From assembly GCA_019634625.1 (NCBI GenBank), contig JAHCBA010000006.1, forward strand, positions 62,001-126,000: a stretch of 64,000 nt of DNA, given 5' to 3'. Positions 2,970 to 62,400 of the stretch are shown here, piece after piece. The stretch is from Verrucomicrobiia bacterium. Lineage in GTDB: Bacteria > Verrucomicrobiota > Verrucomicrobiia > Limisphaerales > CAIMTB01. The position numbers were made by a program, and so were the translations under genes. Position 1 is the first letter of the stretch. Every line of letters begins with the position of its first letter. Below the pieces are notes generated by a model. The model ran no database searches. It was not told where the DNA came from and worked only from the letters and a program-made list of their open reading frames with translations.

Positions 2970-5900
2970 TCACTGCACGCGGAAGAATCGTGCGGGGGCC
3001 GAGCAGTCCAGGGGCACCGTGAGAAGGTTTGGAAGGTCCTCTCCCACGAATGTGTCCACGACATCCCAGCGCACGAGGTCGGGCGAGGCTTCCAGTCGAT
3101 ACGGGGTATCGCGAAATCCCTCGAACCGCATCGCCATGTGACCTTCGGTGTCCAGGGATGCGCTGACCAGCCGGCCGCCCGCCGGAATCCAGCGGAAACT
3201 CCAAACGAACGACTGAACGTGGTCGGGTGCATCGAAGGCGATCGAATACCCGGTGTCGGATTCCAGGTCGTGGTGGTCGCCATGGGGCGACGGTGCAACC
3301 CGGACCAGGGTGTCCACCGACCCGCCCCGATAGATGCCGACCGGGGTGTCGGGGTGTCCGCGCTCGATAAACAGGCGGCCCGCCAGGGTCGGGTGGAAGG
3401 CCCACCAAACGGAGCGGTGGGGCATGCCGAGTCCATGATCGGGTTCGCCCTCCTCGGCGGAGGCATCGCGGGGATCGACCTCGAAGGACCCCTGGTAGCC
3501 CGTTATGGGAAGGCGGGAGGCGAATGTGTCGTTGGCCGGTCGTGCGCGGATGGCGACCCGCACCGGGAGGGAATGGAGGGTCGTCCCGGAGGCGTCGGTG
3601 CAGGCGGCACGCAGCAGGGCCGTGCCCGTTTCCGTTGGGGTCCACTCGATGCTCCAGGGTTCCGACGCCCGCGTGGCCAGCGTCCGGTCGCCGAGGTGGA
3701 ACGAGACGCTGACGATCCCGCTGGCGCCGGGGTTGCAGACCGCCTGGATGACCAGGGGATCACCGATCCATTGCGTGCCGCCTTCAGGCGCGACGATGCG
3801 GACTTCGGGAGGTGCAACGTCCGGAGCCACCCGGGTCGTTTCAACCCGGGACACGAACGGCGTCGCATTGCCGGCAACGATGCGGACCCCGCGGAATGCG
3901 AGCAGCGTGGGTTCGGTCGGCGCGGTCAGGCGACAGGAGACCCGAAGGGACTCGGCGGCGGGCAGTGCAAGCGTCCAACGCACCGTTCGATCCTGAATCG
4001 ATCCGCCGCCATCCGCCGCGACGAATGAAACCCCGTCGGGCAGAGGAAGCAGAATCTCGGCAGCGGCGGGGCCGAGGCCGGCGACGCGATGTGCCAGCAG
4101 TTCGACTTCGAACTCGGCGCCGGGCGCGACGGACTGCGGGACCATCGGGGCCAGCTCGAAGTCCCCGTGCGGATCGGCCCAACGCGCGATCCCGAAGGAA
4201 GAGGAGTCGCCAGCCTGGATGAAGCTGCCTCCGATGTACGCGGCGCCGCGCCACCATGCCAGGGCGGTGGGAATGGTCGGCCAGACCCCGGACCCCATGC
4301 GTTGCCATTGGCCGGCTTCCAGATACGCGACACGGGTGGCCTCGGAAGGTTGGGCGATGAAATCACCCGCCAGGAACACCCGTCCGCGACCGTCCGTCGC
4401 AATGGCGTTGACCACGCTGAATGGCATCTCGATCAGGCGTGAACCGACGGCGGACCAGGCGTGACCGTTCCACATGGCCACTCCCGAAGCCTCGATATCG
4501 CCGATCCGGGTGAACCGGCCTCCGAGGAACAGTCGCTCCCCGTCGTGGTGCAGTGTCAGGACGCCGGATCGGATGCCGTCGGCGAGGACGGTCCACTCGA
4601 AACCGTTCCAGCGGAAGACGGCGCCAAGGCGGTTGGTTGGCGGGGTGTCGGGACGGAAGCCCGCCGCAAAGAGTTGGTGTCCATCGACGGCCAGGGATTG
4701 GACGGTCAGGTCGGGGGCGAGGCCGGGCGAACTCCAGCTCCGGCCATTCCACACGGCGACCCCAAACGGAGCGCCGGCGGCGATCAGGCGATCGCCCTGC
4801 CAGGCAAGAGCGGACACCGGCCCGGGCAATCCTTCGCCGAGGGGTTGCCAGGATGCCCCGTCCCAATGCGCGACATGATTGGCGGTCAGGTCCCGGATCC
4901 GGCTGAAACGGCCGCCGATGGCGTGGTGAGGACCGGCGTTGGCGACGGCCAGGATCTCCGCCGTGACCCCGGAGCGAGGGATGCCGAGACCCGACCCGAG
5001 TTCGCCCCAGGTGGTGCCGTTCCAGGCGGCGACGCAGTTCCACAGGGAAGCACCATCCGGGTAGAACCGTCCGCCCACGAGAAGCGACTCCGGGGTCGCC
5101 ACCACGGCGGGAATGCCGGGGGCCTCCGGACCGCTGTAGCCCAGCCCTTGGAACACGCTCCCGGTTTCGCGCACCAGCGCCACGGTGCGACGTCCGCCGC
5201 AAAAGGCGTTGGTGCTGAAACCGAGCCCCATTAGATCATCCCCGGCCCGGACCATCGACGTGAACTGGGCGTAGGAGTGTCCGGTCCAGGGCCGCCAGCG
5301 GGTGCCGTTCCATGAAGCCAGACCGGAGGCGGCAAGGTCACCCGCGACCCGGAAGGTGCCCGCAGCCACAAGTTCGCCCTCGAAGGCATGGAGCGCCGTT
5401 GCGGTCGCCACGCCCGGTCCGATCCCGTCGCCCAGAGCGTGCCATCGCACGCCGTCCCACCGCGCGATGTTCTGCACCGGAGTGTCCCCGGCGAGCGTGA
5501 AGCGTCCCGCAACGAACAGTTCGGTCCCAAGGGCGCGGAGGACGCTGACAAAGTGCGCGGGTTCGGCAGGGCCCAGGCCCCCGCCCTCGAACGGTTGCCA
5601 GTCGTGCCCATCCCATCGCAGGAGGCCTCCGGGGCCCGCCGGGTCCGAGGCGTCGCCCGCGGCAATGAGGTCGCCGCCATAGGTCGCCAGCGCCAGGATC
5701 GGAAAGGGGACACCCGTGCCGACCGGGGACCACGCTTCGCCATCCCAGGAGGCGATATTCCGCACGGCGTGACCCCCTGCCCGCTGCAACGTCCCGCCCA
5801 CGTACAGCCGCCCCTTGTGCTCGATGAGGCAGGCCGGCGTGCCCTCGATGCCGTCCCCAAGACCGGACCACACCCCGTTGCTCCAGCGGAGGAGGTTGCG

Positions 5901-9799: not shown

Positions 9800-11153
9800 A
9801 GCCGGCCGAACGACCGGGGGCACAGGGGTGCTGGTGTGGGTCACGCTGGTGGCGGCCACCGGCGGGTTTCTCTTCGGCTACGACACCGCCGTCATCAACG
9901 GGGCCAACCAGTACCTGCGGGCGCATTTCGATCTGTCCCCGGCCCAGGAGGGATTCGCGGGGGCCAGCGCGATCATCGGCTGCATTCCAGGGGCGATGGC
10001 GGCGGGGTTCCTGAGCGACCGTTTCGGACGGCGCAAGGTGGTGTTCCTGTGCGCCATCCTCTTCGCCCTCTCGGCGCTGCTTTCGGCGGTGCCCCGGACC
10101 TTCGCCGAGTTCCTCGCCGCCCGGTTTCTCGGCGGCCTGGGTCTGGGCGCGTGCTCGATGGTGTGCCCGGTCTATGTCTCGGAACTCGCCCCGGCCCGGA
10201 AGCGGGGCGCGCTGGGTGCCCTCTTCCAGTTGGGGATCGTCACCGGGATCTTCCTCACCCTGTTCATCAATGCCTGGATCCAGGGCTGGGGAGACGACTC
10301 ATGGAACCGCACCGCGGGGTGGCGGTGGATGTTCGGGGCGGAACTGTTCCCGGCGTTGCTGCTGCTCGGACTGATCCTGCGGGCGCCGGAAAGTCCGAGA
10401 TGGCTTCTGCAGGCCGGACGCGACGAGGAGGCCCGAGGGGTCCTCCAGGCGGTGGGCGGACGGGAACACGCCGAACGCGAGATCGTCGCCGTGCGGGAGG
10501 TGCTGGCCACCGGGGAGGGGCGCTTCGGCGAATTGTTCAGCCCACGCTTCCGCGTCCCCCTGATCCTCGCGGTGGCGCTGATGGCCTTCTCCCAGTTCAG
10601 CGGCATCAACGCCATCATGTACTACTCGACGCGGATCTTCACCGCCGCGGGCATCGGCGTCCGGGACGCCTTTCAGGCCTCGGTCCTGGTCGGCACCATC
10701 AATCTCCTGTTCACCTTCGTGGCCATCGCCCTGGTGGACCGGGCCGGGCGGCGTCCGCTGCTGCTCATCGGCCTCGCCGTGCAGGTCATCGCCCTGACCA
10801 CGGTCGGAGTGCTGTTCGCCTCCGGGTCCGGGACGGTCCTCTTGCTGCCCGCCATCCTGGCGTTCATCGCCGCGTTCGCCATGGCCCTCGGGCCCATCCC
10901 CTGGATTGTCTGCTCGGAAGTGTTTCCCACCCGCATCCGCGGACGGGCCATGGCGGTGGCCACCTTCACCATCTGGACCGCCTGTTTCGCCGTGGCCCAG
11001 ACCTTCCCCATGCTCAACGACCATCCCGCTGTCGGACCGGCCCGGACGTTCTGGATCTACGCCGGATGCAGCCTGGCCGCCCTGCTGTTCGTCTGGCGCC
11101 GCCTGCCCGAAACCCGCGGACGCACCCTCGAGGACATCGAACGGAGCTGGTGA
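9792..11153 (+). CDS. MFS sugar porter (sugar:H+ symporter)
   Basis: 453 aa inner-membrane transporter of the MFS sugar porter family with 12 predicted helices. All family signatures are present: GYDTAVINGA in helix 1, DRFGRRK after helix 2, PESPRWL after helix 6, QFSGINAIMYY in helix 7, DRAGRRPLL after helix 8 and the C-terminal PETRGRTLEDIE. These match the XylE/GalP/GlcP type, so proton-coupled uptake of a hexose or pentose is expected. Overlap of the start with the stop of the mannosidase gene suggests the substrate is the sugar it releases, plausibly mannose; this is inference from context. A palindromic repeat begins 10 nt after the stop. Confidence 0.93.
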   Translation: MTEAGRTTGGTGVLVWVTLVAATGGFLFGYDTAVINGANQYLRAHFDLSPAQEGFAGASAIIGCIPGAMAAGFLSDRFGRRKVVFLCAILFALSALLSAVPRTFAEFLAARFLGGLGLGACSMVCPVYVSELAPARKRGALGALFQLGIVTGIFLTLFINAWIQGWGDDSWNRTAGWRWMFGAELFPALLLLGLILRAPESPRWLLQAGRDEEARGVLQAVGGREHAEREIVAVREVLATGEGRFGELFSPRFRVPLILAVALMAFSQFSGINAIMYYSTRIFTAAGIGVRDAFQASVLVGTINLLFTFVAIALVDRAGRRPLLLIGLAVQVIALTTVGVLFASGSGTVLLLPAILAFIAAFAMALGPIPWIVCSEVFPTRIRGRAMAVATFTIWTACFAVAQTFPMLNDHPAVGPARTFWIYAGCSLAALLFVWRRLPETRGRTLEDIERSW

Positions 11154-11163
11154 CACCGGCCCC

Positions 11164-11245
11164 GGGGTCAGATCTGTGAATTTGACAAATGGAGTGGCAG
11201 CGCCCGAAAGGGGTGGCCAAATGTCAAATTCAGAGATGTGACCCC
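11164..11245. repeat. palindromic REP-like element, family GGGGTCA, copy 1
   Basis: Imperfect inverted repeat: the left arm starts GGGGTCAGATCTGTGAATTT and the right arm ends in its complement ATTCAGAGATGTGACCCC, with a short unrelated centre. The same arms occur at 57062-57141 and 58156-58235. It lies just after the sugar porter stop, where it could fold in mRNA and act as a terminator or 3' stabiliser. Arms of this kind are known from REP/IS200-like palindromes moved by Y1 (RAYT) transposases; no such transposase is in the window. Confidence 0.8.
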
Positions 11246-49039: not shown

Positions 49040-49094
49040 CGCCCTCTGGATAAGTCGGAAGACGCGCTCGTGGCAATGGCCAAAGCACGAACGG

Positions 49095-49160
49095 TCGGGT
49101 GTACACGCTTCAGCGTGAGCCTTCCCAACCACCCCGACACGCGAAAGCGTGCACACCCAA
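49095..49160. repeat. TTGGGTGT palindrome, copy 1
   Basis: 66-bp element from TCGGGTGTACACGCTTCAG to GTGCACACCCAA, with arms that pair over the length except for a short centre (AGCCTTCCCAACCACCCCG). The same arms occur at 49211-49276 and, with altered inner parts, four more times in 57590-58115. Region 49040-49359 contains these two palindromes and no gene that I can support. Confidence 0.8.
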
Positions 49161-49210
49161 CGAAGGGCGGCCAAACTCTGTGTCCCCACGTCCCCGCCCC
49201 GCAAGGACGG

Positions 49211-49276
49211 TTGGGTGTACACGCTTCAGCGTGAGCCTTCCCAACCATCCCGACACGCTGAAGCGTGTACACCCAA
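49211..49276. repeat. TTGGGTGT palindrome, copy 2
   Basis: 66-bp near-perfect palindrome from TTGGGTGTACACGCTTCAGC to GAAGCGTGTACACCCAA, 116 bp downstream of and nearly identical to copy 1. It lies 84 nt upstream of the tricorn protease start, and could form a strong hairpin in the leader mRNA or a cruciform. Confidence 0.82.
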
Positions 49277-49359
49277 CGAAGACTTGTGGAGCCACCGATC
49301 GTGGCGATTGCCAGGTTTTTCCCATCGCGGCGAACGCTCCACTTTGAGATGACTGCCAG

Positions 49360-54137: not shown

Positions 54138-57029
54138 ATGAACGGGGAAGGGTCGATGACCAGCGGCGTACCCGGGATGGCGGCGACGATGCGGGGTCCG
54201 GAACCCATTCGGGTGGCGCCGGTCTGCCGGAGTTCGGATGCGGCGGCGAAGATCGAGTTGTTCCGGTCGCTATTCCGGGGGCGCGAGGATGTCTATCCGC
54301 GCCGGTTCGAGAGTCGGCGGACCGGGCGCTCGGGGTATCAGCCGGCGTGTGGCAACGAGTGGGTGCGGGGCATCTGCGAGAAGCCGCGCATCCGGTGTTC
54401 CGAGTGTCCGCATCGGCGGTATCTGCCGGTGACGGGGGAGGTGGTGCGGTGGCACCTGAGCGGGAGGGACGCGGAGGGGGCGCCCTTCGTGATGGGGCTC
54501 TATCCGATGCTGGCAGACGAGACGTGTTGCGTGCTGGTGCTGGATCTCGATGGCGAGGCGTGGGTCGAGGACGCGGCGACATTGCGCGAGGTGTGCCGGA
54601 GACAGGGGCTTCCGGTGGCGTTGGAACGATCCCGGTCGGGGAAGGGCGGGCATTTCTGGTTCTTCTTCGAGGAGGCGATCCCGGCGCGCCTGGCAAGGAG
54701 TCTGGGTTCCGCCCTGCTCACCGAGGCGATGGACGTGCGTCCGGACCTTGGACTGGGCTCGTATGACCGGCTGTTCCCGAACCAGGACACGTTGCCGCGG
54801 GGTGGCCTGGGCAATCTGATCGCCCTGCCGTTGCAGCGGGAGGCGCGCGATCGGGGGAACAGTGTCTTCGTGGATGAAGCGCTCGCGGCGTACCCGGATC
54901 AGTGGGCGTTCCTGTCGGGGATCCAAAGGCTGTCCCGTATCGAGGTGGAACGGAGGGTTCGGAAGGCGGAGGCGACGGACCGGGTGATCGGCGTGGTGCG
55001 GGCGATGCCGGAGCCGGACGAGACCCTCGAGCCATGGCTCAGGGTGCCGTCGCGGAAACGGCGTGATCCGCCTCTGACCGGACCCATGCCGTCGAGGATG
55101 GAACTGGTGTTGTCCGACCAGATCTACCTGGCGAAACCAGCGCTGCCGCCCGGGTTGCGCAACCGGCTGGTGCGGCTGGCGGCCTTTCAGAATCCCCTGT
55201 TCTACAAGGCCCAGGCCATGCGGCTGCCCACCGCGCAACTGCCGCGGGTGGTGGCGTGTGCCGAGGATCTGCCAGGCCATCTCGGGTTGCCGCGGGGGTG
55301 CCTGGGCGACGTGGAGGCCCTGCTGCATTCCCTGGGCATCGAACCGGTCATCCGGGACGAGCGGAATGCGGGTTGTCCGATCGGAGCACGGTTCCAGGGG
55401 ACGTTGAGGGAGGAGCAGCAGGAGGCGGCGGAGGCGCTGCTGCGCCACGACACGGGGGTTCTGGCGGCGACGACGGCGTTCGGGAAGACGGTGGTGGCGG
55501 CGTGGCTCATTGCGGCGCGTGGGGTGAACACGCTGGTGCTGGTCCATCGAAGGCAGCTCCTCGAACAATGGGTTGAGCGGTTGGCGACGTTTCTCGGTGT
55601 CCCGGCAAAGGACATCGGGCGGCTGGGTGGGGGGAGGCGCCGACTGACCGGCGTGTTGGATGTGGCCCTGATTCAGAGCCTGGTGCGGCGCGATGAGGTG
55701 CGCGACGCGGTGGCGGACTACGGGCACCTCGTGGTGGACGAATGTCATCACCTGCCGGCGCAGAGCTTCGAACGCGTCGCCCGCCGGGCGAAGGCCCGCT
55801 TCGTCACCGGCCTGTCCGCCACGGTGGCGCGACGCGACGGCCATGAACCGATCGTCTTCATGGAGTGCGGGCCGGTGCGGCACCGGGTGGACGCGCGACA
55901 GCAGGCGGCGGTGCGTCCCTTCACCCATGAGGTGTTGGTCCGGCCCACCGGGTTTCAACCGCGCGAGTCGTCCGAGTCCGACCCGGGGGCGGCGTTCCGC
56001 GAGCTGATCGGGGCCTTGTCCAGGGATGCGGCCCGGAACGCCATGATCCGCGACGACATCCTGGGCGCGGTGGCGGCGGGCCGATCGGTGCTGGTGGTGA
56101 CCGAGCGGACGGATCATCTCGAGGCGCTGGCGGGCGGATTGCGGGAGGCGGTGCCGCACGCGGTCGTGCTGCGCGGCGGGTTGGGAAGGCGGGCGTTGCG
56201 GGATGCCATGAACGGCCTGTCCGGGGTGCCCGACGGGAAGGGCCTCCTGCTGCTGGCGACGGGCAGCTACATCGGGGAGGGGTTCGACGATCCGCGGCTG
56301 GACACGCTGTTCCTGACCATGCCGGTGTCGTGGCGTGGAACCGTGGCCCAGTACTGCGGGCGGTTGCACCGGTTGCACGACGGCAAACGGGCGGTGCGGG
56401 TGTACGACTACGCCGACCTCGACATTCCCGTGCTGAGCCGGATGTTCGACCGTCGATGCCGCGGCTACGAGGCGATCGGCTACACGATCCTGCTGCCGGC
56501 CAGCGCGATGGCGGGGTGGCCCGCCGACGTGCCTCTGCCGGTCGATGCCGCATGGAAACACGACCATTCGGAGAGCATCCGGCGGTTGGTGCGGGACGGG
56601 GTGGATGCGACGCTGGGGAGATTGTTTGCGGGAGCGTCTTCGCCACCGGCACCGGATGCGGAAGGCGAGGCGCGGGCGCGGAGTGCGGCGGAGGCGTTCC
56701 TGTACCGGCGGTTGGAGACGCTGCCTGAGACGAGGGGGCGTTTCCGCCTGAACGCCGATCTTCCGATCGCCTTCGACGGCCGCGGTTGCATGGAGGTGGA
56801 TCTGCTCGATGCCGGGGCGCGGCTGGTTGTGGAACTCGACGGCGAGCAGCATCTCGGGAATGCCGAGGCGTATCGCCGGGACCGGCGCAAGGACGCCCTG
56901 CTCCAGGAAAACGGGTACCGTGTGCTGCGATTCCTGACGGAGGATCTCAGCGTGCGACTGGATGCGATCCTCGACGCGATACTTCGTGCGGTGGCGGGTA
57001 TGCGAAGATCCACAACCCCGCACTGTTGA
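54138..57029 (+). CDS. TOTE-type primase-helicase-nuclease fusion
   Basis: 963 aa. TOTE proteins are predicted conflict-system effectors combining an archaeo-eukaryotic primase, an SF2 helicase and an endonuclease. Here: a Cys-rich zinc cluster (Cys71, 80, 87, 90, His92) before the primase; primase core with DLD (136-138) and SGKGGH (167-172); helicase with Walker A AFGKT (447-451), DECHH (534-538), SAT (560-562) and QYCGRLHR (738-745); and a C-terminal DUF559/Vsr-type nuclease (about 845-950) with Glu886, ELDGEQH (899-905), Asp915 and Lys918. Start could also be ATG 54156, which has a better GGGGAAGGG upstream. Repeats flank it on both sides. Single-gene layout; no adjacent regulator is apparent except the nucleotidyltransferase pair 1.4 kb away. 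Confidence 0.88.
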   Translation: MNGEGSMTSGVPGMAATMRGPEPIRVAPVCRSSDAAAKIELFRSLFRGREDVYPRRFESRRTGRSGYQPACGNEWVRGICEKPRIRCSECPHRRYLPVTGEVVRWHLSGRDAEGAPFVMGLYPMLADETCCVLVLDLDGEAWVEDAATLREVCRRQGLPVALERSRSGKGGHFWFFFEEAIPARLARSLGSALLTEAMDVRPDLGLGSYDRLFPNQDTLPRGGLGNLIALPLQREARDRGNSVFVDEALAAYPDQWAFLSGIQRLSRIEVERRVRKAEATDRVIGVVRAMPEPDETLEPWLRVPSRKRRDPPLTGPMPSRMELVLSDQIYLAKPALPPGLRNRLVRLAAFQNPLFYKAQAMRLPTAQLPRVVACAEDLPGHLGLPRGCLGDVEALLHSLGIEPVIRDERNAGCPIGARFQGTLREEQQEAAEALLRHDTGVLAATTAFGKTVVAAWLIAARGVNTLVLVHRRQLLEQWVERLATFLGVPAKDIGRLGGGRRRLTGVLDVALIQSLVRRDEVRDAVADYGHLVVDECHHLPAQSFERVARRAKARFVTGLSATVARRDGHEPIVFMECGPVRHRVDARQQAAVRPFTHEVLVRPTGFQPRESSESDPGAAFRELIGALSRDAARNAMIRDDILGAVAAGRSVLVVTERTDHLEALAGGLREAVPHAVVLRGGLGRRALRDAMNGLSGVPDGKGLLLLATGSYIGEGFDDPRLDTLFLTMPVSWRGTVAQYCGRLHRLHDGKRAVRVYDYADLDIPVLSRMFDRRCRGYEAIGYTILLPASAMAGWPADVPLPVDAAWKHDHSESIRRLVRDGVDATLGRLFAGASSPPAPDAEGEARARSAAEAFLYRRLETLPETRGRFRLNADLPIAFDGRGCMEVDLLDAGARLVVELDGEQHLGNAEAYRRDRRKDALLQENGYRVLRFLTEDLSVRLDAILDAILRAVAGMRRSTTPHC

Positions 57030-57061
57030 GCGGCGCACCCGGGAGTCGGCGAGCAACCCCC

Positions 57062-57141
57062 GGGGTCACATCTCTGAATTTGACATTTGGCTCCCTCTCA
57101 GGCGCCACGACCTGATTTGTCAAATTCACAGATCTGACCCC
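57062..57141. repeat. palindromic REP-like element, family GGGGTCA, copy 2
   Basis: 80 bp: GGGGTCACATCTCTGAATTT on the left, TTCACAGATCTGACCCC on the right, nearly identical to copy 3 at 58156-58235 (differences at only a few positions) and in the same orientation. It starts 33 nt after the stop of the TOTE-type gene. Confidence 0.85.
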
Positions 57142-57433
57142 GGGTCCGCTCCCACTTGCCAGTGCGCGCGTACACGGTGCAGGGCCAGTACACGTTACCC
57201 CTGAATCGGCGTCGGGATCGGAACCGAAATGGATGACCTGGGTCTTTGACACGAGAGACTTGATCGGGGCCATGCGACCATCGATGACCTACGGTGGGAA
57301 TCCCTGAGCGGCGGATGATCGACCGGACCGAAGCGATACCGATTCCGATACCGACCCCGATCCGACCATCAAGCCGGGGAAGCGCGCACCACTGGAGGCT
57401 CGAACCGCTCCAGGGAGTGGCCAGGATCCGGGA

Positions 57434-57536
57434 GAAACCCGGAGGGTTTCCAGAGATTAGCCGGGGGTCGAGCCCGGCTCCGCGGGTTCGACCCCCGGGA
57501 AAAGGCCCACACCGCACACGACCCCGCCAGGGGTCG
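57434..57536. repeat. cluster of three hairpins
   Basis: Three separate perfect stems: GAAACCC/GGGTTTC (57434-57440, 57444-57450), CCGGGGGTCGA/TCGACCCCCGG (57461-57471, 57488-57498) and CGACCCC/GGGGTCG (57519-57525, 57530-57536). The region 57142-57589 holds no gene that I can support; it also contains a CGATACCGATTCCGATACCG simple-repeat tract at about 57331-57358. Confidence 0.6.
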
Positions 57537-57589
57537 TAGAACTTGTCCTCGTCCTCGAACCGGCAGACCCGTCCCCAATCCCCAACCCG

Positions 57590-58145
57590 TTGGGTGTCCC
57601 GGCTTCAGCCGGCTGCGACCCCACCATCCCATCCCGCCGCGTCGCGCAGCTCTCCCCTTCCAATCCTCATGCCCCGACACGCTGAAGCGTGGACACCCAA
57701 CCGCCCGTCCCCAATCCCCAACCCGTTTGGTGTGCCGGCTTCAGCCGGCCGCGACACCCTCCTCTCCCATCCCGCCGCGTCACGCAGCTCTCCCCTTCCA
57801 ATCGTCATGCCCCGACACGCTGAAGCGTGGACACCCAACCGCCCGTCCCCAAACCCCCGACCCGTTGGGTGTCCCGGCTTCAGCCGGTCGCGGCACCCTC
57901 CCCTGCCATCCCGCCGCGTCGCGCAGCGCTCCCCTTCCAATCCTCATGCCCCGACACGCTGAAGCGTGGACACCCAACCGCCCGTCCCCAATCCCCGACC
58001 CGTTGGGTGTCCCGGCTTCAGCCGGTCGCGGCACCCTCCCCTGCCATCCCGCCGCGTCGCGCAGCGCTCCCCTTCCAATCGTCATGCCCCGACACGCTGA
58101 AGCGTGCACACCCAACCGCCCGTCCCCAATCCCCGACCCGTTGGG
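57590..58145. repeat. tandem array of four TTGGGTGT palindromes
   Basis: Four consecutive units, starting at 57590, 57726, 57865 and 58003 (period about 136-139 bp), each opening with TTGGGTGT.CCGGCTTCAGCC and closing with CACGCTGAAGCGTG.ACACCCAA, then a spacer of about 25 bp (CCGCCCGTCCCCAATCCCC). A fifth start at 58141 is cut off by repeat copy 3 at 58156. The outer arms match the palindromes at 49095 and 49211, whereas the inner GGCTTCAGCC hairpin differs. Units are nearly identical over most of their length, indicating recent tandem amplification. Confidence 0.85.
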
Positions 58146-58155
58146 TGCGAGCCCA

Positions 58156-58235
58156 GGGGTCAGATCTCTGAATTTGACATTTGGCTCCCTATCAGGCGCC
58201 ACGACTTGATTTGTCAAATTCACAGATCTGACCCC
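58156..58235. repeat. palindromic REP-like element, family GGGGTCA, copy 3
   Basis: 80 bp, GGGGTCAGATCTCTGAATTT to TTCACAGATCTGACCCC, nearly identical to copy 2. Copies 2 and 3 bracket the hairpin cluster and the tandem array in direct orientation. It abuts the partial 157-bp element copy G with only a GGGTCCGTTCCGGGTCCGTC linker. Confidence 0.88.
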
Positions 58236-58251
58236 GGGTCCGTTCCGGGTC

Positions 58252-58360
58252 CGTCGTCGGAGGGCTGGGTTCCACGAGGGCGCAACGGTGTGGAGCGTTG
58301 AGGACTCGCGGAGCTCGTCCCTCCGATTCTTTGCCTCCTCTCCCACAACTCCGGGATGCA
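58252..58360. repeat. 157-bp palindromic element, copy G (5' truncated)
   Basis: About 109 bp from GGAGGGCTGGGTTCCACGAG to CCGGGATGCA, same orientation as copies A and C. The left end is missing where it meets repeat copy 3. The small gene of the nucleotidyltransferase pair starts 57 nt downstream. Confidence 0.82.
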
Positions 58361-58416
58361 CCGGTCTCGCTGTTCGTTTCTTGCCACCCGTGGATGGCCG
58401 GGTGGAGGCTTGGGTC

Positions 58417-58611
58417 ATGGATGCGAACCCGCCGCCCGGTGTGGCGATGCACCGGCCCCGAGTAAGCCGTGTGGCCCAGGCTTCGCTGCAGGCCGAGATC
58501 GAACGCGTCGCAGCGATGACGATCGAGGAGCGGGTGCGGGCCGCGCTCTCGATGGGGGACCGGTTTGCCTGGATTTCGCCTGTTCCGATCGACGCCAGGA
58601 GGAAGGGCTGA
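58417..58611 (+). CDS. small partner of the nucleotidyltransferase
   Basis: 64 aa. ATG 58417 is preceded by GGAGG at good spacing. The protein is short and helical, with IERVAAMTIEERVRAALSMG at about 31-50; comparable 60-90 aa proteins with an M-T/S-P/I-EER helix are frequently found just before DUF6036/AbiEii-like nucleotidyltransferase genes. Its stop is 3 nt before the next start, so the two are one operon. Likely an antitoxin-like partner, by context; no DNA-binding motif is evident. In-frame GTG at 58390 is possible but would run closer to the repeat. Confidence 0.6.
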   Translation: MDANPPPGVAMHRPRVSRVAQASLQAEIERVAAMTIEERVRAALSMGDRFAWISPVPIDARRKG

Positions 58612-58614
58612 GGG

Positions 58615-59178
58615 ATGCCGGATCCCGAGTCGATCATTGAGGTTGCGGAGGGGGTCGCCCGAATTCTGGAAGCGCGCGGCGTGGGAGCCGTGGTGATTGG
58701 CGGAGTGGCCCTGGCCGCCCACCGTTATGTGCGGTTCACGGACGATCTGGACCTGGCGGTGAGCATCGAGCGGGATGCGCTGCATGCGGTTGCGGACGCG
58801 ATACGCGGTCAAGGCCATTCCGTGGCGGTTCGGGATCCCGATCTGGACGACCCGCTGGGGGGGGTCATGGATGTCACGGGCCGGTTCGGTCAGGTGCAGG
58901 TGATCAACTACGGTGGACGGTTTCCGGCGGTGATCGATGATGCGCTGCGAGAGGCGACCCAGACGATTCGGCCGGGGAGTCCGCTGCGGCTGGTGCCGCT
59001 TCCACACCTGGTCGCTTTGAAACTCTATGCCGGGGGTCACAAGTCCAAGGCCGACATCGCCGAACTCCTGCGCCGCAACCCGGAGATCGATGTGGACGGG
59101 CTGCGGAAGCTTTGCCGCCGGTACCGCCTGCCCGGGCTCGACGAGCTTTTGCGCGACGAGGGCCTGGTGTCCCCGTGA
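58615..59178 (+). CDS. MNT/AbiEii-like nucleotidyltransferase
   Basis: 187 aa with the nucleotidyltransferase signature GGVALAAHRYVRFTDDLDL (Gly29-Gly30, Asp44, Asp46), the pattern of DUF6036 and AbiEii/MNT toxin-type enzymes that transfer nucleotides to proteins or tRNA. The rest is helical, with LVALKLYAGGHKSKAD typical of the C-terminal part of this family. It lies 3 nt after its small partner. Standing between a repeat island and a giant exported gene, it may be an accessory toxin or a free-standing enzyme. The third carboxylate cannot be fixed by eye. Confidence 0.78.
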   Translation: MPDPESIIEVAEGVARILEARGVGAVVIGGVALAAHRYVRFTDDLDLAVSIERDALHAVADAIRGQGHSVAVRDPDLDDPLGGVMDVTGRFGQVQVINYGGRFPAVIDDALREATQTIRPGSPLRLVPLPHLVALKLYAGGHKSKADIAELLRRNPEIDVDGLRKLCRRYRLPGLDELLRDEGLVSP

Positions 59179-59464
59179 GATCCTCTGCCACGCTGGACTG
59201 GCTCGTTCCGGCGGCTGTTCGGCCCGGGGGAATGGCGAATCGTAAGGGGGGGTGAGTTCCTGATCATGGCTGTCCTCCAGGCCTGCCGCCGCCGATACGG
59301 CCGGTGGTTCAGGTGTCCCCGCGTGCCCATCCCCAGGCGGGCCGCCATCCTGCCCACCGTCATCGTCGGTTCCGCCCACAACTCCGGGATCCACTGCGCC
59401 GCGGCCGGGCATGATCAATTTGTGTGACGCTGAGCTTTATCCTGTGTTATGGCTCGGCACTGTC
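59179..59464. other. intergenic region upstream of the giant exported gene
   Basis: 286 nt with no gene that I can support. A short tract at 59375-59393 (CCCACAACTCCGGGATCCA) resembles the end of the 157-bp palindrome in degenerate form. TTGTGTGACGCTGAGCTTTA at 59420-59439 is the most AT-rich part and is a possible promoter zone for the downstream gene; no unambiguous boxes were seen. Confidence 0.4.
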
Positions 59465-62400
59465 ATGCATTCCATTCGGCGTGGGGTGGCGTCGGGATTC
59501 CCTTGGTGCGTCCTCGGGTTGTTCTTCTGCCTGAATGGTCCGATCCAGGGTCACGGGCAGGCCGCCGCTGGCGCCGGGCCCCGGCTGTCCATCCGGGCGC
59601 TCGATGCCTTCGATTTCCGCCTGTCATGGCCGGCCGAACCGGCGGGATTCGGGGTGGAGGAAGCCGCCTCGCTGTTGCCGCCGATCGCGTGGACTCCCGT
59701 CTCGGCGACCCCGGCGGTGGAGGCCGGGGAGATGACGGTGCGCCTCGCGTTCGGACCGCAGGCGCGGTTCTTCCGGCTGCGGACCATGACAGCTCCGCTC
59801 ACGACGATCGCCTCGACGTCGCCCGCCCGGGGCGAGAGCGGCGTGGCCGTGACGCGCGAGACCGTCGTGCGTTTCTCCGCTCCGCTGGCGGCCTCCGCGC
59901 AGATCACGACGGATCAGTTCCATGCGGAGTTTGGCGGACGCCGGATCCTCGGCCGGGTCGAGATCGGCGGCGACCGGCGCACGGCCACTCTGTTCCATCT
60001 GGAACCGCTCCCTGGCAGCGCGCGCATCCGGGTCACGTTGATGGGCGAGGGGTTGACCGACGGGCTGGGCCGTCCGCTGGACGCCAATGGCGACGGGGAA
60101 CCGGGCGGCACGGCGGTGTTCGATTTCACCACGCTCAGCCTGAGCAGCGTGCCGAACACGGCAGTGACCGGGCGGGTGTTGGCTTCGGAGACCGGCCTTG
60201 GGCCCGACGGACAGCCCATCAACCGTCCCCTCGCCGGCGCGATCGTCACGCTCGACGGACGGGAGCAATCGGTCCGCGCGACCACGGAGGAGGACGGGAG
60301 CTTCATCTTGAGCCCGGTGCCGGCGGGGGAGTTCTTCGTGCATATCGATGGCCGGACCGCCGAGGGCAGCGCGTATCCGAACGGATCGTTCTATCCGTCG
60401 GTCGGCAAGTCGTGGACCGCGGTGGCGGGAAGGACCAACCTGGCGGGCGGCACCGGGGAGGTCTATCTGCCGCGGATCATCGCGGGCACGCTGCAACCGG
60501 TCAGCATGACGGCGGACACGGAGATCGCGTTTCCCGCGGAGACCCTTCGGGAGCACCCGGAACTGGCCGGGGTCACGGTGACGGTCCCCGCCAACGCGCT
60601 GTTTGCCGATGACGGACGCCGCGGCGGGTTGGCGGGGATCGCGCCGGTGCCTTCGGATCGACTGCCCGGACTGTTGCCCGTAGGACTGGGGTTCCCCCTG
60701 GTCATCACCATCCAGACCGACGGCGCGCTCAACTTCGACAGGCCCGCGCCGGTCCGCTTTCCGAACCTCCCCGATCCTGTCACGGGGGAGGTCCTGCCGC
60801 CCGGGGCAAAGACGGGCCTGTGGAGTTTCAACCACGACACCGGGCGATGGGAGCTCCAGGGATCGATGACCATCAGCGCCGACGGGCGCCTCGCGGTGAG
60901 CGACCCGGGCGTGGGCGTCACGGCGCCCGGGTGGCATGGGACCAATCCAAACACCGAGGGGGGCGGCGGAGGCGGTGGAGGCCCGCGGAATCCGCGGGAT
61001 CCGCGGGATCCCGACGACCCGGACGATCCGGACGACGATCCGGTCGATCCCTGCGATCTCGAGCGCAAGAAGCTGCTGCTTTCCGATGGCCAGTGCGCCT
61101 TGTCGCTGCTCTCGGCGATTCCGGTGTTTGGTTGCGGGGTGAGTTTCTTCGCGGGCGGCGTGAGTGCAGCCGCCGATTGTGCGGTCGATTACGATTCCTG
61201 CGGAGGTTCGGTGCTGGGCAATGTGGCGACGAGCCTGATCGGGTGTGTTCCGGTGATTGGCGGGGCGACTTCGGCTTCGATGACCTGCCTGTTTGGGCGC
61301 GAGAACGCCTATGTGCGCTATCGGTTGTGCCGCGACGCCCCGCGGTCGGTGTTGGCGCTGCACGGCCTCGATCCCAGGCCATCGGTGGTCGTGCCTCCGG
61401 GCGCCATTCCCTCGGGACTGCTCTTCGAACAGGCGCGACTTTGGTCCGACTCGGCGGATTTCTTCGCGGCGCTGTACGGAAGTTCCAAGTGGAGTGTCAT
61501 CCCTCCCGAAGGCGCCGTCGCCGCGCATGCGATCCTCGGTGCCGTCCGGCAGGCGAGCCAGATCTCGAGTCCCGCGGGTGTCCGCATTTCGCCGGAAGAA
61601 CGGGACGCGATTGTGGCCATGCCCCGTCCGCCTGGGATCGCGATGAGCGACGTCCTAGCGGTGATCGACCGGAAGGACCGGATGAACGCCGGGTTGCTCA
61701 CCCCGGCCGAGTTGAACCTGCCGGCGATCCGCGAGACGGCGGAGACGCTCCTTCAGACGGCGCTGACCCTTGAGGCCCGGGGCTGGGAGACGACTCTCGA
61801 CTACTTCGAACACGCTCTGAAGCTGGCGGACGATCAGGATGCGGCCTTTCACGGTCACCGTTCCGCGGGCGGTCGCGCCGCCCTCGCCTCGCCCTCGCCC
61901 ACCTCGGCGCGGCCGTATGAACTTCGTCCGTCGGTGTTCTACAAGATCACCAACACGCAGAACGGCTTTGCCCAGCGCGGACGTCTCGGGCCCAACGGCG
62001 AGTTCAACAGCCTGATTCTCGTCGCCGAGGCGATTTACCTCGTTCAATACGCAGACCCGCACTCTCTCGAGACTGCGGTCACCGTGTTCCGAGCCGCTCG
62101 GGCCGGGAATTTCACCACGATCCCGCGCGCCATCTTTTCTCCGGAGGATTCCGCGGATTCCGACGGCGACGGCCTCCCTGACGATCTCGAGGACGTTCTC
62201 GGCACCAACCCGGCCAACCCGGACACCGACGGCGACGGGATCCCGGATGGCGTGGAGGTGCGGAACGGAACGGATCCACTCGACGGCCTGCCCATGGCGA
62301 CCGGGGTCCTGGCTTCGGTGGACACTCCGGGGACCGCAATGGACCTCGGGATCGGGAACCAACTGGCGGTGGTGGCGGATCAGTCGCAGGGGATCGCCGT

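Follow-up and report, generated by a model that had tools for sequence, protein, structure and literature searches.

The window, a stretch of 64,000 nucleotides from a Verrucomicrobiia bacterium (C6:62001-126000), belongs to a genome of 6.74 Mb in 88 contigs. Its repeat-bearing intergenic stretch (57030-58614) lies between a gene for a TOTE-type primase with superfamily-2 helicase and DUF559 nuclease (54138-57029, forward strand) and a small gene beginning at about 58615. The product of the small gene (58615-59178) contains about 187 amino acids, has no Pfam match and looks nucleotidyltransferase-like by eye. From left to right, the stretch contains a family A element, a family C element with a leader, four family B units plus eight bases of a fifth, a second A element and a family D copy, all on the forward strand. 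Each of these families has further copies elsewhere in the genome.

The first A element (57059-57144, copy 2 of an earlier note made on this sequence) has arms that match the flanks of Y1 transposase genes. It is followed by the leader of the C element (57151-57432), which includes a run of CGATTC/CGATAC-type short repeats and, from about position 57334, is common with a locus on contig C19 (82%). The C element itself (57433-57542) is made up of three perfect hairpins (folding z = -6.5). A junction between C and a B-type spacer (CCCGTCCCCAATCCCCAACCC, 57568-57588), also present 3' of a C copy in C19, leads into the B units, which are inverted pairs of REP-like half-sites with a spacer: unit 1 (57589-57724), unit 2 (57725-57863), unit 3 (57864-58001) and unit 4 (58002-58139). 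Their starts are spaced 136, 139 and 138 bp apart, and TRF reports the array (57568-58147) with a period of 138, 4.2 copies, 93% matches and a score of 990. The array stops eight bases into the fifth unit (GTTGGGTG, 58140-58147), the remainder of which is absent, and the second A element (58153-58238, the earlier note's copy 3) begins five bases on. The D copy, of the 157-bp family, occupies positions 58257-58370.

The bracketing of a hairpin cluster and four tandem units of about 138 bp by the A pair, as the earlier note described it, is confirmed by these coordinates. The two A elements, which begin with GGGGTCAG, are indeed near-identical direct repeats (95% identity), with a length of 86 bp each and not the 80 bp proposed. 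Copy 3 was said to cut a fifth unit and to join the 157-bp family directly; only a spacer and GTTGGGTG (58117-58147) precede it, no remainder lies beyond it, so that a clean insertion of A into unit 5, which was looked for, finds no support, and about 8-18 bp separate it from the D copy. Part of this gap (TCCGYT) is also found with other A copies. The window contains a further A copy on the reverse strand (11161-11245) and a second B array on the forward strand, with two units of the B1 subtype at a period of 116 bp (49094-49277). Folding of the B, C and A sequences of the locus is strong (z -4.4 to -7.9). Rfam gave no match at E up to 1 across positions 56000-59500, and nothing at gathering score in four array-bearing loci.

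Family A and its transposases

The arms of family A are 27-bp inverted sequences (CCCGGGGTCACATCTCTGAATTTGACA / TGTCAAATTCACAGATCTGACCCCGGG), 93% complementary, and the element has a folding z of -7.9. More than 20 near-complete copies are present at unrelated sites, and outside the arms their flanks are unrelated to one another. No target duplications were seen at A copies when these were inspected by eye. Full-length copies show a weak preference in the left flank, with C at -1 in 16/21 and A at -4 in 13/21. Most copies carry GGGGTCAG or GGGGTCAC, in agreement with the terminal motif GGGGWSAS. Two Y1 (HUH) transposase genes of the same genome are flanked upstream and downstream by A arms (L069 1462-2514 and L070 1456-2523), starting about 35-60 bp past one arm and ending at or near the opposite one. 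In the congener G002, an orthologue of the A-type transposase with 67% identity has both arms at matching positions. The two A-flanked genes score 59.4 and 45.6 bits against Pfam Y1_Tnp (cut-off 23) and 56-60 bits against the RAYT equivalog NCBIfam NF047646 (cut-off 80); among solved structures, the A-type transposase found no match.

Because the same arms flank Y1 transposase genes, family A appears, from its sequence, to be a miniature derivative of a RAYT/TIRYT transposon, and its anatomy is as expected for one. TIRYT transposase genes are surrounded by GGGGWSAS terminal repeats (Di Nocera et al. 2013, PMC3733652). Family A resembles these in its GGGGTCAG start, in flanking Y1 genes and in being a moderately abundant dispersed family; it differs in that most of its copies are inverted pairs of 86 bp, and so miniature elements, and in its Verrucomicrobiota-type host.

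Another Y1 transposase family, of about 330 amino acids, is present at about 28 places in the genome, with copies about 90% identical (for example L086 1449-2436, L073 1460-2444 and L075 1455-2439). Homology extends from about 5 bp before the ATG to the stop codon, with no conserved ends beyond the open reading frame, and several contigs break or end inside this gene. As a mobiliser of B this family was rejected, since its homology stops at the ends of the open reading frame.

The B hairpin and its arrays

A B half-site consists of a GTTGGGTGT arm, one free base and a 5-bp stem closed by a four-base loop of TTCA type. Two inverted half-sites form a unit of 67-70 bp (B1) or 91-115 bp (B2), and 43 such inverted pairs were found, with spacers between dimers of 19-64 nt. 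In 1.37 Mb of the genome there are 65 half-sites, as against 0 in the reversed sequence (up to 4 mismatches). G1 and GGTGT (columns 5-9) of the arm are invariant, and arm and loop are constant while the stem varies on both sides: a free-stem scan recovered CACGC/GCGTG, CCGGC/GCCGG, CACCC/GGGTG and CCGCC/GGCGG, among others. Stems are fully paired in 99/110 half-sites of this genome and in 41/46 from other genomes, where frequencies are biased because loci were mostly fetched by similarity to B. Over 37 distinct half-sites, 91.9% of cells pair and two-sided changes affect 36 cells, compared with 13.0 in shuffles (0/500 reach that value); the covariation score is 0.53, against 0.02-0.09 with slid partners. 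Since the stems of copies differ by compensatory changes, the B hairpin itself is conserved, as would be expected if an enzyme reads the folded form.

The REP-like nature claimed for these elements is supported, with B classed as REPIN-like and not as a REPIN because a GTAG tag and a linked transposase are missing. No GTAG (or GTGG-type) tag is present beside the hairpin. B was also considered as a CGTC-tagged REP, where CGTC stands directly beside a stem of 8-9 bp, and this was rejected; CGTC is found in some B1 arrays only, after CCCAAC, and never beside the 5-bp stem. Among the loci checked in the genome and its relatives, no transposase is flanked by B, and the Y1 genes examined carry either A arms or no conserved flank.

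B is spread over the whole genome and forms tandem arrays at ten or more loci. Array periods are specific to the locus and range from 97 to 155 bp (about 97, 100-103, 111-124, 113, 114, 116, 136-139 and 155). For 25/30 array units the nearest neighbour is in the same array, and within the locus array units 3 and 4 are 98.6% identical, with the other pairs at 88.5-92.8%. The 52.6% obtained for the array on contig C18 in this comparison probably stems from one misoriented unit, its printed units being near-identical. As units resemble their array neighbours most and units 3 and 4 are so similar, the locus array is best read as a local, partly recent amplification, and the tandem amplification proposed in the earlier note is supported. 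Not all arrays behave in this way. Six B1 arrays have one unit of about 115 bp in common, spacer included, at 71-85% identity (shuffled mean 46, maximum 74), together with the junction ...CCCAAC/CGTCC.... The second array of the window (49094-49277) is of this class and has its unit in common with five other arrays. A spacer is common to the locus array and C19 (87%), and the remaining B arrays have private spacers. These comparisons point to local amplification on several occasions and to dispersal of at least one larger unit. Runs of hexamers (GATTACGATTACGAGTACG...) adjoin the B arrays at L090 (about 4560-4700) and L098 (about 10200-10400), and runs of a similar kind come after some C elements.

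This genome contains the exact B1 core 81 times, and 57 relatives, four congeners included, do not contain it at all; a wider arm-plus-loop pattern occurs 80 times here and 0-2 times elsewhere. An identical array in all relatives, which the earlier note had named as excluding recent amplification, is accordingly not seen, with the relatives, at 67-70% protein identity, being too distant to date the array or to prove that it is recent. Several of them have related inverted pairs of other sequence, and the named public genomes with a B2 half-site are Verrucomicrobia MAGs. The B type is accordingly wider than the species, and the expansion seen here is the species' own. The TOTE orthologue in the congener G001 (70% identical protein) lies in a different context, with other sequence downstream. 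Orthologues of an upstream Tricorn-like gene in G002 and G004 have no other window genes adjoining them in the stretches of 8-14 kb that were read. No empty site could accordingly be read.

When the arrays are compared with known systems, the principle is familiar. E. coli BIMEs are mosaics of palindromic units that cluster in intergenic DNA, and the locus is alike in both respects; its sequences are other, and it mixes in three unrelated families. BIMEs have been named as mosaics of REPs (PMC8266576). Pseudomonas fluorescens SBW25 has 16 ordered REPIN clusters, with tandem repeats that include the flanks; clusters also arise there by insertion of REPINs into or beside REPINs, and the largest contains four REPINs and an extra REP in more than 700 bp (Bertels and Rainey 2011, PMC3116915). 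As in SBW25, the unit in our genome is an inverted pair of hairpin half-sites, and near-identical units are repeated head to tail together with their flanking sequence. Unlike the SBW25 REPINs, B has a GTTGGGTGT arm where those carry the GTAG tag, lacks a linked RAYT and is found in a host of a different phylum, and one unit type (about 115 bp with its spacer) is common to several arrays. Grouped REPs reiterated in tandem with flanking DNA segments have been described, and REPs of the CGTC type are known that have no transposase of their own (Di Nocera et al. 2013, PMC3733652); B differs from the grouped REPs in its sequence family and in the absence of CGTC/GTAG tags.

Shared repeat zones and the origin of the array

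The analysis covered about 1.9 Mb of the genome in separate stretches, and the copy numbers of C and D apply to the parts covered: family C has 40 copies with about 75-96% identity (about 1.9 Mb), and family D, the most abundant, forms 113 clusters in 1.36 Mb. Statistics are based on 1.36 Mb in six contigs. There, C lies within 300 bp of B in 3/8 cases (random mean 0.14), B within 300 bp of D in 13/23 (random mean 1.57) and A within 300 bp of B in 2/24 (random mean 0.30, with 9/300 trials as high); these excesses are upper estimates, because random placement was uniform over all DNA and such repeats mostly avoid genes. C clearly clusters with B, and so does B with D; for A and B the clustering is weak. 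On contig C19, one stretch (C19:64098-64797) contains B, C, A and C and shows the same passage from C into B spacer as the locus. The C19 array is adjoined by a fragment (L089 5973-6106, C19:63972-64105) that is 92% identical to the neighbour gene of the A-type transposase on contig C61 and ends where B starts. The repeat families gather in shared intergenic zones, of which the locus is one. The single hot spot of the earlier note is too narrow a description, given the same families in C19 and at least ten other B arrays.

We consider it probable that small palindromic repeats of several families land and decay in this intergenic stretch, with A inserted by a transposase and B amplified in place. 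Anatomy, copy numbers, linkage of A to its transposases, stem covariation and local similarity of units are observed; which enzymes acted, in what order events took place and how amplification came about is inferred. The non-autonomous A, with its RAYT/TIRYT (Y1, HUH) terminal arms, would most likely have been inserted by the A-type transposases of the genome, which would use single-stranded DNA in its folded form and leave the target unduplicated. Following the arrival of one or a few B units, as REPIN-like inverted pairs of hairpin half-sites, a unit and the spacer next to it would have multiplied head to tail on the spot, through slippage during replication at the hairpins or through unequal recombination. 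The step producing units 3 and 4 would be recent, and C and D would be additional dispersed hairpin repeats nearby. That several families arrived in succession, as the earlier note held, is supported. No remainder of unit 5 is found past the second A copy (between 58239 and 59400): A may have landed at the end of the array, or the rest may have been lost later by deletion or recombination, and this genome is compatible both with A before B and with B before A. The unit of about 115 bp counts against part of this explanation: because six arrays have it in common, spacer included, they do not each reflect independent amplification, and dispersal of a unit that was already tandem, or larger, accounts for part of the pattern.

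These same six loci, with their common junction, speak for a rival explanation in which a hairpin-acting enzyme (a RAYT in trans, with circular or rolling intermediates), in place of slippage or unequal recombination, made or spread the B arrays and so gave exact head-to-tail units. The REP-like structure, with a fixed arm and an exchangeable stem, agrees with this, and a circular-intermediate model of REP arrays has been discussed (PMC3733652). Such an origin is conceivable and we regard it as rather unlikely, since no B-linked transposase was found, the other arrays have private spacers and units group by locus.

Strong folding of B, C and A and the compensatory stem changes would also suit a retained functional structure, such as hairpins that end transcripts or stabilise mRNA, or an array bound by a protein downstream of the TOTE gene. 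This appears improbable: recognition by a transposase predicts stem covariation equally, the region contains two terminator-like sites, both in or near D (shuffle mean 1.0), and no promoter-like site, and the sequence downstream of the TOTE orthologue in G001 is different.

The fit of the B arms to integron boxes prompted a genome-wide search for the integron integrase family. One gene is above the cut-off (C17:74-1645, L101; 523 amino acids, TIGR02249, 435 bits), and directly 3' of it lies a 613-bp tandem repeat in two copies at 98%, with a B half-site and C within about 350 bp of the gene. Two integrase remnants (C20:71834-72028, L106 9835-10029; and C1:114460-114570) both adjoin B and C and lack the same internal segment (C17, about 276 to 1641-1650). 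Contig C20 had been fetched because of C, C17 came from the genome-wide search and C1 from systematic reading. The association with B and C is accordingly probably real; duplication of a single locus may be all that lies behind it, and we regard it as a lead. An intact gene and two copies with the same deletion, all adjoining B and C, resemble an autonomous element with deleted derivatives, from which one could suppose that an integron-type tyrosine integrase, acting on folded non-attC hairpins, dispersed or rearranged B and C; we give this little credence. If the association holds in other genomes, it would be worth more than the array itself.

Faulty assembly of part of the array or of its junctions, which the 88 contigs, several ending in a repeated transposase gene, might suggest, is very improbable: units differ at many positions, the array lies inside a 213-kb contig with unique flanks, and similar arrays are present in many contigs. 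Least credible is a cassette-like array in which B or C hairpins are attC-like sites of an integron-type integrase. The B arms do fit GTTRRRY/RYYYAAC, and the sole TIGR02249 gene above the cut-off and the two remnants adjoin B and C. In attC sites the box order is RYYYAAC, then GTTRRRY. This order is reversed in B dimers on both strands, and the reading was rejected on this ground, the integrase gene being present but elsewhere; spacers between dimers go down to 19 nt without a second box pair, C has no such boxes, and no remnant of the integrase is present at the loci of the window and of C19.

The locus is a composite of known kinds, new in its sequence families and ordinary in its principle. 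It widens the range of tandem REPIN-like clusters and of RAYT-type miniature elements to include a Verrucomicrobiota-type genome, in which one place combines several families. B, a REP-like hairpin with a fixed arm, an exchangeable stem and no known mobiliser, provides a test case for the spread of transposase-less REPs.
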